Both the position numbers and the translations under genes were made by a program. Below, in pieces: positions 18,587-28,432 of a DNA stretch of 64,000 bases. How positions within the stretch are numbered: position 1 is the first letter of the stretch; every line of letters starts with the position of its first letter. This DNA is from Candidatus Scalindua japonica. Lineage in GTDB: Bacteria; Planctomycetota; Brocadiia; Brocadiales; Scalinduaceae. A model generated the notes under the pieces. It saw nothing but the letters and a program-made list of their open reading frames with translations, did not search any database and was not told the DNA's origin. The DNA lies in the NCBI RefSeq assembly GCF_002443295.1, contig NZ_BAOS01000005.1:1-64000 (forward strand), in the 5' to 3' direction.

Positions 18587-20194
18587 TTAATTCTGTAACA
18601 ACAGATGAAAAGCAATCATCGTCTTGTCCAGGTATGCCTGAAACGCAAGATTCCCTCTCTTGCTTAAACGATCATCACCAATATCACACTTCAAGCGCTT
18701 TATCATCCGCTCAACTGAAGGACGACGTGTCATTATTGCCTTGAATCTCTTTGCCATTGGAGGATCTTCCGTGTCTATGTGGGGTAATAACCCAAATGAT
18801 ATATTAATCATCCTGCCAGTTAACGAATTGGGACAACACTCTACCTGATGCAAGCATGTTGAACACACCGGTTCACCATCTGTATCCGTTGGCGCATGGT
18901 AAATGAATTTTTCTTTTTCATAACGCATTCCTTTGTAATCCATCTCATGGCCACCATTGCATATTACCACACCATACGGCGTTATCTTCTCCATGCCACG
19001 CGGCAAACCATCTGTTATTCCATTCTTGCGCCTTGGATTTAAAGATGCCTTTAATTCTAAGCCGAGTTTGTCCATAAACTTATCTTTCAAATCTCTGCTA
19101 TCACACGCGCTATCATACAACGCTCTTTTAACCGATTCTTCAATCACCGGATATGTATCAAATACCTTTTCTACATGTGGAAAATATGTCTCTCCATCAT
19201 GTGTCGGTCCATCCAACACTGCTCTTGCATCCAGAGGCACGCCTTGACGTGGAAAACCTACAATACTTGCTTTGTGCCCCCAATACATCTTTGTTATGGA
19301 TTTCACGATTGTCCCCGCTCCTTCATCTGCCAATACCCAGTCATGTTCACACTTGTCTCTGTCCTGACAGCGACACCTCTTAGTCAGCTTTGATTGCGAC
19401 TTCTTCTGCTCCTCCTTACCATCTTCGTCCTTATACTTTACTGTCTCAAACCCTGAATATGCATAATAGTGAGTTGTATCTCCTACTACTTCCTTTTCTA
19501 TTTTAATCGCACCTGTCTCTATGTTCTCAGTTACCAGCGCAATCTTCATCTTATCCCATAGCCCCCACTCACTCATGATCTGGTCAAATTGCTGCAGTTT
19601 ACGCTCACTTGGTATATGCCTGCTACAATACTCATCCCTTTCCCCCTTCGGTGCAAATCCACATACTCGCACAAAACTCGGATTACTCTTTAATAACATG
19701 GACACTTTTTCCGGCTCGCACGGAAATCCCATTAGAGCTGTACCCAAAAAACTTTTTAACAACGCAAAAAAACATTTTGGCCTCTTACCTCCCAATCGAA
19801 ATGGCACTACCCCGGGAGATATACTCAGGGGACTTACCATCCGCTGCTTTGATTCAGCCGCTACTTCATAAAGCACATCACCTCTCTTCTCCTTGTCAAC
19901 TTGCATTGTTGCTCTATTAAACAAAAGCTCCTGTCTTGCATCTTCTTTGCTCTGAGATAATACTACTTGCTTTTGGGGTTGATTTTTCAGCCTCTTTCTC
20001 TCTTCTCGTTTATTAAATTCATAAAGTGCATCGTAGTACTCAGCACCGAAATTACGGTGTTTCTCCCAGGGAAAATAATATAAAGCCCGAAACCATTCCG
20101 CATCTGGTGTATTAAGCAGTACTTTGTCATCTTCGTGAACAGTGTGAATTAGTAGCGATTTTTGGTTGATTTGAATTTGTGATATTGGTAGCAT
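18587..20194 (-). CDS. DDE-type transposase, family uncertain
   Basis: This 535-residue protein has a C-terminal block RRPSVERMIKRLKCDIGDDR followed by LSKRGNLAFQAYLDKTMIAF, typical of DDE transposases. A central Cys/His cluster (CRCQDRDKCEHDW) is followed by DEGAGTIVKSI, and a CSTCLHQVECCP cluster is near the end. Candidate catalytic aspartates are in VLADEGAGT and LYDSACDSRDL. IS1182- or ISNCY-type relatives are plausible. I could not find convincing terminal repeats, so whether a complete element is present is unclear. Confidence 0.7.
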   Translation of the reverse strand: MLPISQIQINQKSLLIHTVHEDDKVLLNTPDAEWFRALYYFPWEKHRNFGAEYYDALYEFNKREERKRLKNQPQKQVVLSQSKEDARQELLFNRATMQVDKEKRGDVLYEVAAESKQRMVSPLSISPGVVPFRLGGKRPKCFFALLKSFLGTALMGFPCEPEKVSMLLKSNPSFVRVCGFAPKGERDEYCSRHIPSERKLQQFDQIMSEWGLWDKMKIALVTENIETGAIKIEKEVVGDTTHYYAYSGFETVKYKDEDGKEEQKKSQSKLTKRCRCQDRDKCEHDWVLADEGAGTIVKSITKMYWGHKASIVGFPRQGVPLDARAVLDGPTHDGETYFPHVEKVFDTYPVIEESVKRALYDSACDSRDLKDKFMDKLGLELKASLNPRRKNGITDGLPRGMEKITPYGVVICNGGHEMDYKGMRYEKEKFIYHAPTDTDGEPVCSTCLHQVECCPNSLTGRMINISFGLLPHIDTEDPPMAKRFKAIMTRRPSVERMIKRLKCDIGDDRLSKRGNLAFQAYLDKTMIAFHLLLQN

Positions 20195-23178: not shown

Positions 23179-24036
23179 ATGAGAAAACCAGTTTATTGCT
23201 TCATAGATGATTCACCATTCGAACTTAATCTTTTCAAGGATGTTATTGAAGTTCGTTTCCGGGGAATACAGTTTATATATGCCTCCACATACGATGAGTG
23301 CCACAGACAACTGAAGGAACTGGAACTGTATCCATCTCTATTTATTCTCGATCTTTATGGCCCTGAAAATTTACAAAATAGTGGCTGTATTCCCAGGAAA
23401 GAGTTGCTGGAAGAACGAATAAAGAAAATACCAGGCGTGGGCGTTGCCTATGATGGCCTTGAGAAGTTTGATCACGATAAAAAACTGCATGCAAATGAGT
23501 ATCTTAAACGCCTGTTTTCAATATTGAATGAATGGAGGAATCTCTTCTCTGAACAGTGTGCCAGCCTTGACCAGGGATGCCAGTTTGGAATCAATAACCT
23601 CCTGCGGGTCAGGCAAGACTATCCATCCGTCACTGCCATCATGTATACCAGAAAAGGTGTATTTACAGATGCTGTAAAATTGTCTCAACACAACTGTGAT
23701 GGAATATATATAAAGCCTCCCGGTGCTACTGACGAAGACATTTTCGTAGAAACGGAAAAACAAGCAGAAAGCCTTATGGACAACTGGAACAAGAGTGTGA
23801 TGAATAGCTACTGCCTGTTTCTCCAAACACTAAATACACACGATAAAACACCCAAAAAACTTGCAGATATGTTATCCAGAGATAAGTATCAGATCTCAAA
23901 GAATAAAGAAGAAATGAACAATGTGAGTACACTTCTGGATTCATTACAAACTACACTTTCTAACACAACAGATACATCAACACCAAAAATAGAGGCACTC
24001 ATTCAATGGGTAAACTTTTATTATAGTTTGCCTTGA
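23179..24036 (+). CDS. Atypical response-regulator receiver protein with internal insertion
   Basis: This 285-residue protein opens like a receiver domain: CFIDDSPFEL (D10, D11) and LFILDLYGP (D58, likely phosphoacceptor). The matching later motifs, IMYTRKG (T157) and IYIKPPG (K179), come about 80 residues later than in ordinary receivers, so residues about 62-140 are an insertion. The C-terminal 85 residues are helical without a recognised output domain. It is coupled to the hemerythrin-like gene. The function is inferred to be signal transduction; a DNA-binding domain is not visible. Confidence 0.65.
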   Translation: MRKPVYCFIDDSPFELNLFKDVIEVRFRGIQFIYASTYDECHRQLKELELYPSLFILDLYGPENLQNSGCIPRKELLEERIKKIPGVGVAYDGLEKFDHDKKLHANEYLKRLFSILNEWRNLFSEQCASLDQGCQFGINNLLRVRQDYPSVTAIMYTRKGVFTDAVKLSQHNCDGIYIKPPGATDEDIFVETEKQAESLMDNWNKSVMNSYCLFLQTLNTHDKTPKKLADMLSRDKYQISKNKEEMNNVSTLLDSLQTTLSNTTDTSTPKIEALIQWVNFYYSLP

Positions 24037-24246
24037 ATACAACACAGCCATCCTCCTTAATATAACAATAAAAAATTGACAATTTCTCTAAATATTTGAT
24101 AATACGTGAAATTTAAAAAGGAATTATTGTTTTTTTCAATAAGAAATGAGAAGATGTAGCATATGAGCAAACAAGCCCCGCAGTTTATATGGTACTAGAG
24201 TACAATTAACTTAACTACGGCATTCTTTCATTGAAGGAGATAGTAG

Positions 24247-24936
24247 GTGAAAATAGGATTTACGGGAATTGATTTACCGGAAGGAAAAACTAAATATAAG
24301 GATGAAAAGCTTATTGCATTGGAAGCAAAAGACAATGCAAAAAAAGTTTCTCCGTTTTTTGCTGAATTTATAAAAGACGAATTTGTACATTCTGAAGCAA
24401 TCGTTGTTCCGAAAAGTAATATTATTGATCTATTGATTCTTGATATGGATAAGCTTGAGACCCGAATGTCAAAGCTGGAAGATGGTGAAGAAAAAAACTT
24501 AATGACAAAATGTATGGAACTGTTGGAGCTGGAAAAACCACTTTGTGATGTCGATTTCAATGATCAGGAGATTGAGTTATTGACAGCCATAGCTCCGGTA
24601 AGCTTTAAACCTGTAGTACAGATTGAAGGGAGTGAGGATATCAATACTATTATTTTCCTGGCACTCGAAAAAGCAAATCAGATGTTCTTTTATACTTCAG
24701 GTCCAAAGGAGTCGCATGCCTGGCTCGTACAAAAAAATTCAGAGATTATTGCCTGTGCCGAAAAAATACATTCAGACCTTGCACGCGGATTTATAAAAGG
24801 CGATGTTGTAAGTTTTGAGGACTATATGAATTGTCATAATTTTAATGACTGCAAATCAAAAGGGGTAGCTAAATTGGTTGATCGTGACTATAAAGTCCAA
24901 CCTAATGATATTATAGAAATCAGGTTTAATGTGTAA
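24247..24936 (+). CDS. YchF-like protein lacking the GTPase domain (TGS-like C-terminus)
   Basis: The start is GTG with AAGGAGA upstream. The 229-residue protein has a C-terminal block (about 165-229) matching the TGS-like DUF933 end of YchF/OLA1: ACAEKIHSDLARGFIKGDVV, VSFEDYMNC, then DYKVQPNDIIEIRFNV. The middle (about 55-120) resembles the helical coiled-coil arm of YchF (LLILDMDKLETRMSKLEDGE). The N-terminus starts MKIGFTGIDLPEG, like YchF strand 1, but there is no Walker A and no NxxE-type nucleotide motif. It therefore looks like a YchF derivative that lost its nucleotide-binding domain. It leads a three-gene operon. Confidence 0.7.
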   Translation: MKIGFTGIDLPEGKTKYKDEKLIALEAKDNAKKVSPFFAEFIKDEFVHSEAIVVPKSNIIDLLILDMDKLETRMSKLEDGEEKNLMTKCMELLELEKPLCDVDFNDQEIELLTAIAPVSFKPVVQIEGSEDINTIIFLALEKANQMFFYTSGPKESHAWLVQKNSEIIACAEKIHSDLARGFIKGDVVSFEDYMNCHNFNDCKSKGVAKLVDRDYKVQPNDIIEIRFNV

Positions 24937-24948
24937 AAGGAGAAAAAG

Positions 24949-25965
24949 ATGATTAACGAAGACGAACTATACCGAAAAGTAGAAAGCGCCTGCCGATTAA
25001 TATCGGCTGAATCTTTTAACCTCCGGAGCCGCATCCATAGATTGCGATGGTTTAACCGTTCGGATATATGGATTAAGCGTGACGATGAACTCAGTTTTGG
25101 TGTGTCTGGGACCAGGTTGCGTAAGCACGCGTCAATAATCCCCGCATTAAAGCTGAAAGGAATTGAAGAAGTCGTCGTAATTGGCGGAGCAAATTCTAAC
25201 AATGTTCTTTCTGCCGCTCAGACGCTGACAGAAAATAATATTAAGATAACTCCTTTTTTGCTGGGACCACCGGCAAAAAAACAGGGCAATTTAAAGCTGC
25301 TCTCTCTATTTGTTGACGATGATGAAATACATTGGATTCCACGTGAACAATGGACTGAGATTGAATCCCATGTAAACAAATATGTAGAGAAGGAAAATGA
25401 ACAGGGTATAAAGGTATTTGTGATTCCGGAAGGCGGACACCATCGTCTGGCCCTGCCGGGCTCATTAAGCATCTTATTAGATATTCTTCGAAATGAATCT
25501 GAATCCGGTACCACTTTTGATCATATTTTTATTGACTCCAGTACCGGTATGGTAGCGCAATCCCTTCTAGCGGGAGCTGCGGCAATTAATAAGAAAACAC
25601 AATTTCACATAGTCGTCCTGGCAGGTTCGTTTGAAACTTTTGAATGCGGACTAAGCCAGATTATTCAATATACTGAGGAGTTTCTTCAGGGTTTAATTGA
25701 ATCGCAGCCTGACTATAAGCTCTATTATCCTGCTATTGCCAAGTCTTTTGGAAGCACCGAGAGGACTATTTTCAGGGAAATAAAGAGTATTGCCAGAAAT
25801 GATGGTATTCTCACAGACCCGGTTTATTCAGCTAAACTTTTTATTACGGCAAAACAGATTATTCAGGATGTTCCAATTGATGGTAATATACTCCTGATTC
25901 ATTCAGGAGGCACATTGGCATTAAGCGGTCTTATGGACTATCCACTATCCGGTACCGAGACATAA
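24949..25965 (+). CDS. D-cysteine desulfhydrase/ACC deaminase-fold protein, atypical active site
   Basis: This 338-residue protein has the TrpB-type fold II layout: WIKRDDELSFG, GGANSNNVLSAAQ, a phosphate-cup-like DSSTGMVAQSLLAGA and a terminal IHSGGTLAL. In the family the pyridoxal lysine sits in SGNKxRK; here the segment reads SGTRLRKHAS, so that position is R56, with a lysine at 59. The QSNH substrate motif is NSNN. It may be catalytically altered or may use K59. The start follows the YchF-like gene by 12 bases with AAAAGGAG. The substrate is unknown. Confidence 0.7.
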   Translation: MINEDELYRKVESACRLISAESFNLRSRIHRLRWFNRSDIWIKRDDELSFGVSGTRLRKHASIIPALKLKGIEEVVVIGGANSNNVLSAAQTLTENNIKITPFLLGPPAKKQGNLKLLSLFVDDDEIHWIPREQWTEIESHVNKYVEKENEQGIKVFVIPEGGHHRLALPGSLSILLDILRNESESGTTFDHIFIDSSTGMVAQSLLAGAAAINKKTQFHIVVLAGSFETFECGLSQIIQYTEEFLQGLIESQPDYKLYYPAIAKSFGSTERTIFREIKSIARNDGILTDPVYSAKLFITAKQIIQDVPIDGNILLIHSGGTLALSGLMDYPLSGTET

Positions 25966-26007
25966 AAAGAGAAAACATACTTTTATAAAAAATGGAGTAA
26001 TCAAAAT

Positions 26008-27174
26008 ATGACTTATCAAAATGTTGTAGTTTTAGGAGGAAGTGGCAATGTTGGCCGGGAATTTATGTCCCAGGTAATGCGACATGATACTGTTTTCTCA
26101 AAAAAGCACCTTAATCCCACAAATATAATAGGCCTGACAGACAGCAAGGGTTTCTGGTTTAATCGCCACGGTCTTAATATCCAGAAGAATCCTGAAAACA
26201 TTTATAAATGGAGGGATTCAAAAGAGACATTTAATACATTTATGCGGGATTTAGATGAATATCACCAGTATGACAATTTATGCGATTTATTAAAATTTAT
26301 TCAAGATGAAGGAATGGCCGGTGAAATTGTTTTTGTTGATATTACTGCCGGTAAGGACGATTTGAGGGATTTTCATCTTAAAGTAATCAATGATTCAGAA
26401 GAGACTATAATTACCGCAAACAAAAATCCGCTCTCCATATACTCAACCGACGTTTTCGGAACACTTACCAGATTTAGAGAAAGATATGGGTTTCTGTGCA
26501 CTGTAATGGCGGGCGCGAATGCGGTCTCCAACCTACTGGACTATTACGATACCTCAGAGATAGTAAAGAAAATAGAAGCATGTTTTTCCGGTACCCTTGG
26601 ATACCTGTGTGCAGAACTGGAAAAAGGCGGAAGAAGTTTCTCAGAAATACTGAATGATGCGAAAATAATGGGTTATACCGAACCTCACCCAAAAGATGAC
26701 CTGAATGGAATTGATGTTGCCAGGAAACTGATAATCTGTGCAAGAACATTTGGGCATAATGTTTCAATGACAGATATTGAGCTGGAGGGTTTCATAGATG
26801 AATCATTCCTTAATATCGATGATGTAGACGATTTTATGGAATCAGTAAAAGGAGCTGATCAGGATATGAAAAACAAATTTGATTCTGCGAAAAGAAACGG
26901 AAAAACCTTAAGATACATTGCCTGTTTTGAATTGCATGAAAATGGAAATTCAGTTTTTAAAGTAGGTCTGAGAGAAGTCCCTCCAGACTCCCCTCTTGGC
27001 AGCCTGAAGGGTTCGGCAAATAAAGTCATCGTCGAGACAGATATTTTTTGCGGTGATAAACAATCTATTATAGAGTCACCCGGAGCAGGGCCAGATGTGA
27101 CTGCCTGGGGATTAAGAAGAGAACTCCTGTCAAGGTTGACAGGGAGAAAGGGTGGAGACTACAAACTGACGTAA
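26008..27174 (+). CDS. Homoserine dehydrogenase-like protein
   Basis: The 388-residue protein has an N-terminal nucleotide-binding motif VVLGGSGNVGREF, the family motif ITANKNPLS, and the catalytic-domain sequence SGTLGYLCAELEKGG ... GYTEPHPKDDLNGIDVARKL, which keeps the catalytic aspartate and lysine. There is no ACT domain. It would reduce aspartate semialdehyde to homoserine, or act on a similar substrate. It is the third gene of the operon, 42 bases after the fold-II enzyme. Absence of other threonine or methionine genes nearby leaves the pathway open. Confidence 0.8.
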   Translation: MTYQNVVVLGGSGNVGREFMSQVMRHDTVFSKKHLNPTNIIGLTDSKGFWFNRHGLNIQKNPENIYKWRDSKETFNTFMRDLDEYHQYDNLCDLLKFIQDEGMAGEIVFVDITAGKDDLRDFHLKVINDSEETIITANKNPLSIYSTDVFGTLTRFRERYGFLCTVMAGANAVSNLLDYYDTSEIVKKIEACFSGTLGYLCAELEKGGRSFSEILNDAKIMGYTEPHPKDDLNGIDVARKLIICARTFGHNVSMTDIELEGFIDESFLNIDDVDDFMESVKGADQDMKNKFDSAKRNGKTLRYIACFELHENGNSVFKVGLREVPPDSPLGSLKGSANKVIVETDIFCGDKQSIIESPGAGPDVTAWGLRRELLSRLTGRKGGDYKLT

Positions 27175-27521: not shown

Positions 27522-27851
27522 ACCCTGGAGTTACTTGAGTCGGTTGAAATTGGAGAAAGTAAAGGAGAGTTAAAAAAGAAGATTAATGCGATCTTGAAAT
27601 ACGACATCGTAACCATTGACGAGTTGGTTTATTTGCCACTAAACAAACAGAGCGTCTTTAACCTGTTTCAGTTGATTAATGCCTTGTACGAGTATAGATC
27701 AATTATCATTACTACAAAAAAGGAGTTTACCAGTTGGGAAGACTTCTTTGCTAATGAAAATGTTGCAGTCCGTATTGTTGACAGGGTCATACATCATTCA
27801 CACATTTTAATGATGGGAGGTGATAGTTATAGACTAAAAAAAGCAGAATAA
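27522..27851 (+). pseudogene. istB: 3' remnant of IS21-type istB ATPase
   Basis: The open piece carries the second half of an IstB AAA+ helper: KYDIVTIDELVYLPLNKQ (Walker B region), then SIIITTKKEFTSWEDFF, and DRVIHHSHILMMGGDSYRLK. The Walker A half and istA are missing. Just downstream, at about 27870-27912, GTGGTCATTTTATTGTCCG and GGGGGTCACTT resemble IS21 terminal repeats, so the right end of the element is probably kept. Confidence 0.75.
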
Positions 27852-27877: not shown

Positions 27878-28432
27878 TCATTTTATTGTCCGCAAGGGGG
27901 TCACTTCAAAATGGCCATTGACACTATAATTTACACGTTTTGTCCTTTCACTCCCAAGTGACCCGGTAGTGGTAGTCAAAGCAGTCCTTCTTCCAAGGGC
28001 ATCGCACTCGTATTCAATCTTGCCTATACCAGGATAGTTTAAGGAGATCAGTCTGTTATCTACATCGTCATATCCATAGTGTGTCCAATTTTCTAAAATA
28101 TCACTATTTGAGGTCATTCTACCATTCGCGTCATAATTGATTTCTACTATCCCAGCTGGTGTAGTCTGCTTGATTACATTGCCATTTGGATCATATGTAG
28201 TTTCAGAGATGATCGTATCTTCTTCAGCCGTTCCAACATCTACAGCTTGAATGGTTTTGGTTACACATCCCTGGTCGTCGTACTCAGTCTCTGTCTTTGT
28301 TAATAATGCGTCAGGTTCGCCTTCTCTATACGTGGTAGTCTGTGTCAATAGGTTGTTCGTGTTATACTCAAACGCACTTACCACACTTGAATCGTCCTTT
28401 AGTGTTAAAAGGTTATTACTATCATTAATCAT
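27878..28432 (-). pseudogene. RHS/YD-repeat protein fragment
   Basis: The 184-codon frame contains repeated YD-type units (TEYDDQGCVTKTIQ, TTYDPNGNVIKQTT, INYDANGRMT, YGYDDVDNRLISL), the beta-repeat shell of RHS proteins. It has no signal peptide, repeat shell of normal size or core domain. Its last codons, from about 27915, read into the IS21-like end, so the gene was cut there. Its ATG overlaps the der stop as ATGA, probably by chance. Confidence 0.7.

Follow-up and report, generated by a model that had tools for sequence, protein, structure and literature searches.

The window analyzed here is a 64,000-nucleotide stretch of DNA from Candidatus Scalindua japonica, a member of the anammox order Brocadiales (contig NZ_BAOS01000005.1, positions 1 to 64,000). 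Within it, three tightly spaced open reading frames lie on the plus strand at 24247-27174, as the original prediction had stated, separated by gaps of 12 bases (A-B) and 42 bases (B-C). Gene A (24247..24936, GTG start) encodes a 229-residue YchF paralog with a deleted G domain, recognized by PF06071, TIGR00092 and alignment to canonical YchF. Gene B (24949..25965) encodes a 338-residue relative of fold-II PLP enzymes of the D-cysteine desulfhydrase/ACC deaminase family, assigned by TIGR01275, PF00291 and the PDB entries 1j0a and 7ysk. Gene C (26008..27174) encodes a 388-residue homoserine dehydrogenase, assigned by PF00742, NF006959 and comparison of its catalytic motif with 1ebf. A purine-rich, ribosome-binding-like sequence precedes each gene, and a possible sigma-70-like promoter (TTGACA-16-GATAAT, 24076..24103, plus strand) lies upstream of A; this is a consensus match only, from a promoter scan whose overall yield was not above shuffled expectation. 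The three genes are probably co-transcribed. In relatives, each of them is under purifying selection as measured by dN/dS, which indicates that the features of the locus are more than chance.

The Scalindua block sits between nth/yacP-like/xerC and der. Upstream of A, the window encodes a 285-residue protein (23179-24036, plus strand) with no Pfam match above cut-off, in which receiver-like motifs (FIDDS, FILDLYG, MYTRKG and IKPPG) can be discerned by eye; it is perhaps a divergent response regulator, and in G004, G007 and G012 it is likewise conserved ahead of the block. Between C and der lie an IS21 IstB ATPase fragment (27594-27851, plus strand), identified by Pfam, and an RHS/YD-repeat-like fragment (27878-28432, minus strand), identified by reading; both are remnants of mobile or polymorphic elements. 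Elsewhere in the window, a 535-residue protein without a Pfam match (18587-20194, minus strand) carries a cysteine/histidine-rich, zinc-finger-like stretch.

Gene C has the marks of an intact homoserine dehydrogenase. It contains the PF00742 (Homoserine_dh) domain (E=3e-37), and its closest profile is the homoserine dehydrogenase half of ThrA (NF006959, E=3e-62). The yeast-type catalytic motif EPxPxDDLNGxDVARK, with its Asp and Lys, aligns to that of the yeast enzyme 1ebf, in agreement with the original claim that C keeps this motif. A glycine-rich NAD(P)-binding motif, GGSGNVGRE (residues 10-18), was identified by reading and is conserved in the alignment of C proteins. In 12 of the 13 Scalindua genomes C is the sole PF00742 match, the thirteenth (79% complete) having none; C is also found in G014 and G021, and most of the other Brocadiales searched encode a different, larger homoserine dehydrogenase in its stead. 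Being the only such enzyme in these 12 genomes, C probably supplies the homoserine pathway and is probably a housekeeping dehydrogenase. A literature search combining Scalindua with homoserine dehydrogenase returned no match.

Gene A retains the complete C-terminal domain of YchF (PF06071, YchF-GTPase_C, DUF933/TGS-like; E=2e-25, profile positions 3-84 of 84), while its best stretch against TIGR00092 begins only at profile position 263. Aligned by hhalign with the canonical YchF of its own genome, which is retained (L145) with an intact P-loop, GLPNVGKST, A matches end to end (E=1e-44, 228 columns) with large internal gaps that remove the stretch from the P-loop to the switch and later segments of the G domain. 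This end-to-end match identifies A as an internally deleted paralog rather than a loose C-terminal fragment. The Walker A pattern GxxxxGK[ST] is absent from A, as had been predicted together with its TGS-like end; the nearest sequence is GIDLPEGKT (G-x5-GKT from G7; codons 7-15, 24265..24291, plus strand), which is one residue too long. This is a remnant of the P-loop region, and two distant relatives carry GLDLPEGKI and GLELPEGKF at this place, with the Thr replaced by Ile or Phe.

The distribution of A is narrow. It is present in eight Scalindua genomes, where the window copy shares 83-87% identity with the other seven and dN/dS is ∼0.05-0.11. Outside Scalindua, it was found only in G154 (70% identity) and G091 (42%) among 343 sampled genomes of the phylum; none was found in two further neighborhoods of the phylum, viral contigs gave no match, and in plasmids ordinary YchF alone matched. 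Short DUF933 proteins probably exist in other phyla as well. A literature search combining DUF933 with YchF returned no match. In G154, 4 bases are shared between the end of a typA/BipA gene, named by reading, and the start of the A-type gene that directly follows it (L118:8201-10743, minus strand). This overlap, seen in that one genome only, suggests co-expression with a ribosome-binding GTPase. By analogy with YchF, A is probably linked to translation: with its nucleotide switch gone but a shortened helical region and the TGS-like end still present, it most likely acts as a constitutive binding module on the translation apparatus.

Gene B matches TIGR01275 over residues 36-325 (E=4e-31), although its score falls short of the curated cut-off (289 bits) and lies far under every curated cut-off; it also matches PF00291 and the structures 1j0a and 7ysk. 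The original prediction had given B this family layout, with R56 at the position of the PLP lysine, and both parts hold. In the alignment, R56 (codon AGG, 25114..25116, plus strand) occupies the position of the Schiff-base lysine in the Pyrococcus horikoshii ACC-deaminase homolog 1j0a and in a solved D-Cys desulfhydrase. The proposed test of R56 versus K59 placed no lysine at the catalytic position; K59 was rejected as the aligned catalytic lysine, since it pairs with the next conserved lysine, that of the RK motif. The Schiff-base lysine motif (G-N/T-K) is absent from B in the window and in G006, G007 and G012. A search of the window's genome (G000) at E<=1e-5 gave no further copy of B. AlphaFold2 models of B (7 sequences; mean pLDDT 41) and of A (2 sequences; mean pLDDT 43) were too poor to use.

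Comparison of orthologs traces the loss of the lysine to a single, recent event. Orthologs of B occur at 24 Brocadiales loci including the window, with 69-89% identity. All 19 other rows that cover site 56 have lysine, including those of sister Scalindua that carry B at the same locus; arginine occurs only in the window, G006, G007 and G012 (R-type, as opposed to K-type). These four genomes form one clade with 100/100 support. The codon is AGG in four independent assemblies, which rejects a sequencing error, and AAG or AAA in the K-type orthologs, AAG -> AGG being the change. K56R therefore arose once, in one Scalindua subclade. The trees of the neighboring genes disagree elsewhere, B pairing G001 with G010 and C pairing G001 with G011 (L093, L101, L102), which suggests that B has been exchanged or has recombined within Scalindua.

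The lysine was not the only predicted pocket residue lost. An otherwise invariant glycine, the first of the predicted PLP-phosphate loop (loop role from PMC3344862), is serine in the same clade (G198S; codon 198, 25540..25542, plus strand). When the 16 complete K-type proteins were compared with the four R-type proteins, five sites invariant in the former were replaced in all of the latter, and two of these five, K56 and G198, belong to the ten conserved predicted PLP contacts, a modest enrichment (P=0.04); the contacts were transferred from the StDCyD structure (PMC3344862) by matching motifs. In four control clades, twelve fixed changes of this kind occurred, all of them away from the predicted PLP contacts. 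G80 is also replaced, by Gln or Glu, in three of the four R-type members. The rest of the pocket is largely intact: T55, S83, N84, G200, M201, Y293 and S319 are unaltered in all four. On the other side, 13 of 122 conserved sites vary in at least one R-type protein, though mostly outside the pocket. Pairwise dN/dS (NG86) is 0.09-0.13 among R-type genes, against 0.13-0.20 among K-type Scalindua genes, and is close to that of neighbors such as nth and C. These values show that B is not a decaying gene, and a simple pseudogene was rejected on the same ground. This single loss of a catalytic lysine within one genus, with selection maintained, is the strongest finding of the analysis.

What the arginine form does can be approached from related enzymes. 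B descends from an ordinary fold-II PLP enzyme of D-cysteine desulfhydrase type. One Scalindua subclade replaced the Schiff-base lysine by arginine and the first phosphate-loop glycine by serine while keeping the remaining pocket. In StDCyD, Lys51, the glycine-rich phosphate loop 194-198, Tyr287 and Thr315 are the named residues, and the proposed base is Tyr287, not Lys51; the K51T mutant of ACC deaminase still binds ACC as an external aldimine (PMC3344862). The latter result makes retained ligand binding by B plausible. The R-type protein is probably a ligand-binding pseudoenzyme: it would most likely be a non-catalytic or very slow binding protein whose old pocket holds an amino acid, whether or not PLP is also bound there non-covalently.

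The same data leave some room for B as a PLP enzyme of altered specificity or rate, with external-aldimine chemistry proceeding in the presence of R56, or with K59 as the residue that makes the Schiff base. The pocket is mostly retained, the proton-abstracting base proposed for StDCyD is Tyr287, a lysine-substituted ACC deaminase forms the external aldimine (PMC3344862), and K59 or another lysine could in principle substitute for the lost one. B may also be a slow PLP enzyme that forms no internal aldimine. However, K59 is conserved beside the catalytic lysine throughout the family and so already has another place in the fold, and the R clade has lost the phosphate-loop glycine and, in three of four members, G80; we regard continued catalysis as unlikely. 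Less probable still is that B is inactive and drifting towards the loss seen in other Scalindua. B is indeed absent from G002, G004 and G005 and was not found in G008, and the R clade is variable at some conserved positions, but the four reading frames are intact, the window protein shares 85-89% identity with the other three, and dN/dS matches that of housekeeping neighbors. The literature search returned few papers, none of them on lysine-less fold-II proteins.

Genomic neighborhoods bear on whether the three genes belong together. The proposed search for side-by-side genes found the order A-B-C in five genomes (G000, G001, G010, G011 and G012). A and C occur without B in three (G002, G004 and G005), B and C without A in two (G006 and G007), and C stands alone at the corresponding place in G014; contig ends interrupt the loci of G003 and G008. 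Intergenic gaps range among genomes from called overlap to >300 bases. In other Brocadiales, B lies at other loci, far from any C, and in 9 of 16 cases it adjoins, or lies close to, a gene for a DTW-domain protein (PF03942, tRNA aminocarboxypropyl transfer family). This neighbor of the lysine-bearing B (L077-L079, L081-L083, L085, L090 and L091) may hint at the role that B first had. In G154 and G091, A has no C-type gene next to it. The adjacency of A, B and C is real, and the genes are separable.

The original prediction had two repurposed proteins acting with a real dehydrogenase, perhaps to sense or make an amino acid or sulfur compound. Its description of the parts stands: the features it named as absent are absent, both A and B are under selection, C appears intact and the adjacency is seen again in related genomes. 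Joint action of the three is unsupported beyond that adjacency, given that A is absent in G006 and G007, B in G002, G004 and G005, and C is alone in G014. Because A or B is missing at several loci, an obligate three-protein machine is unlikely. Because sister species keep the lysine of B at the same locus, the cluster did not arise around a lysine-less B. We favor, with a probability of roughly 55%, a housekeeping C that accreted two separately useful genes, B as a ligand-binding pseudoenzyme and A as a switch-less, translation-linked YchF paralog. The locus would be the home of Scalindua's only homoserine dehydrogenase, beside which two more genes were placed and kept for functions of their own.

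A single functional module, either a complex or a regulatory circuit, with B as an amino-acid sensor and A passing the signal to homoserine dehydrogenase or translation, would account for the recurrent order and the short gaps in the window, and the five-genome adjacency would also be compatible with a joint function that is partly redundant. The single module fits poorly with the loci that lack A or B, with the solitary C, with the B genes found far from any C and with the A genes that have no C-type neighbor, and we consider it improbable. A specific version, in which R-type B is a lysine-free fold-II sensor or carrier that binds an amino acid, possibly as a trapped PLP external aldimine, and together with a nucleotide-independent A couples homoserine, threonine or methionine supply to translation, is the longest shot among these proposals.

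Under the preferred reading of accretion beside C, the R-type B at the sole homoserine dehydrogenase locus of these marine anammox bacteria offers a natural case of an enzyme becoming something else. Lysine- and arginine-type orthologs share the locus in closely related species and the substitution is placed on one branch, so this clean pair makes such a transition testable with natural proteins. Gene A, for its part, indicates that a YchF paralog can drop its nucleotide switch and stay under selection, and thus that the function of the TGS-like end is separable from the ATPase.

Several known systems provide a frame for these proteins. An inactive deoxyhypusine synthase paralog, an example of a pseudoenzyme (PMC3663545), resembles B as a catalytically impaired relative kept by selection. 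B differs in that no second active copy was found in its genome, which makes activation of an active partner copy unlikely. C shares its catalytic motif and domain order with the homoserine dehydrogenase half of ThrA-type bifunctional enzymes and with the yeast enzyme (NF006959, 1ebf) and is monofunctional, unlike the reading frames of 818-1013 residues that matched in other Planctomycetota. With YchF/OLA1 (TIGR00092, PF06071; 1jal, 2ohf and 8kie), A shares the N-terminal strand, a helical region, here shortened, and a full TGS-like DUF933 domain at the C-terminus, but it is 229 rather than 362 residues long, has a P-loop overlong by one residue, and lacks the switch regions and later G-domain segments. 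Finally, B shares with D-cysteine desulfhydrase and ACC deaminase (TIGR01275, PF00291; 4d8t, 1j0a and 7ysk) the fold-II sequence layout over its whole length, the SNN loop, the TG phosphate-loop core and the DPVY and GG motifs, and departs from them in having arginine for the Schiff-base lysine and serine for the first glycine of the phosphate loop.
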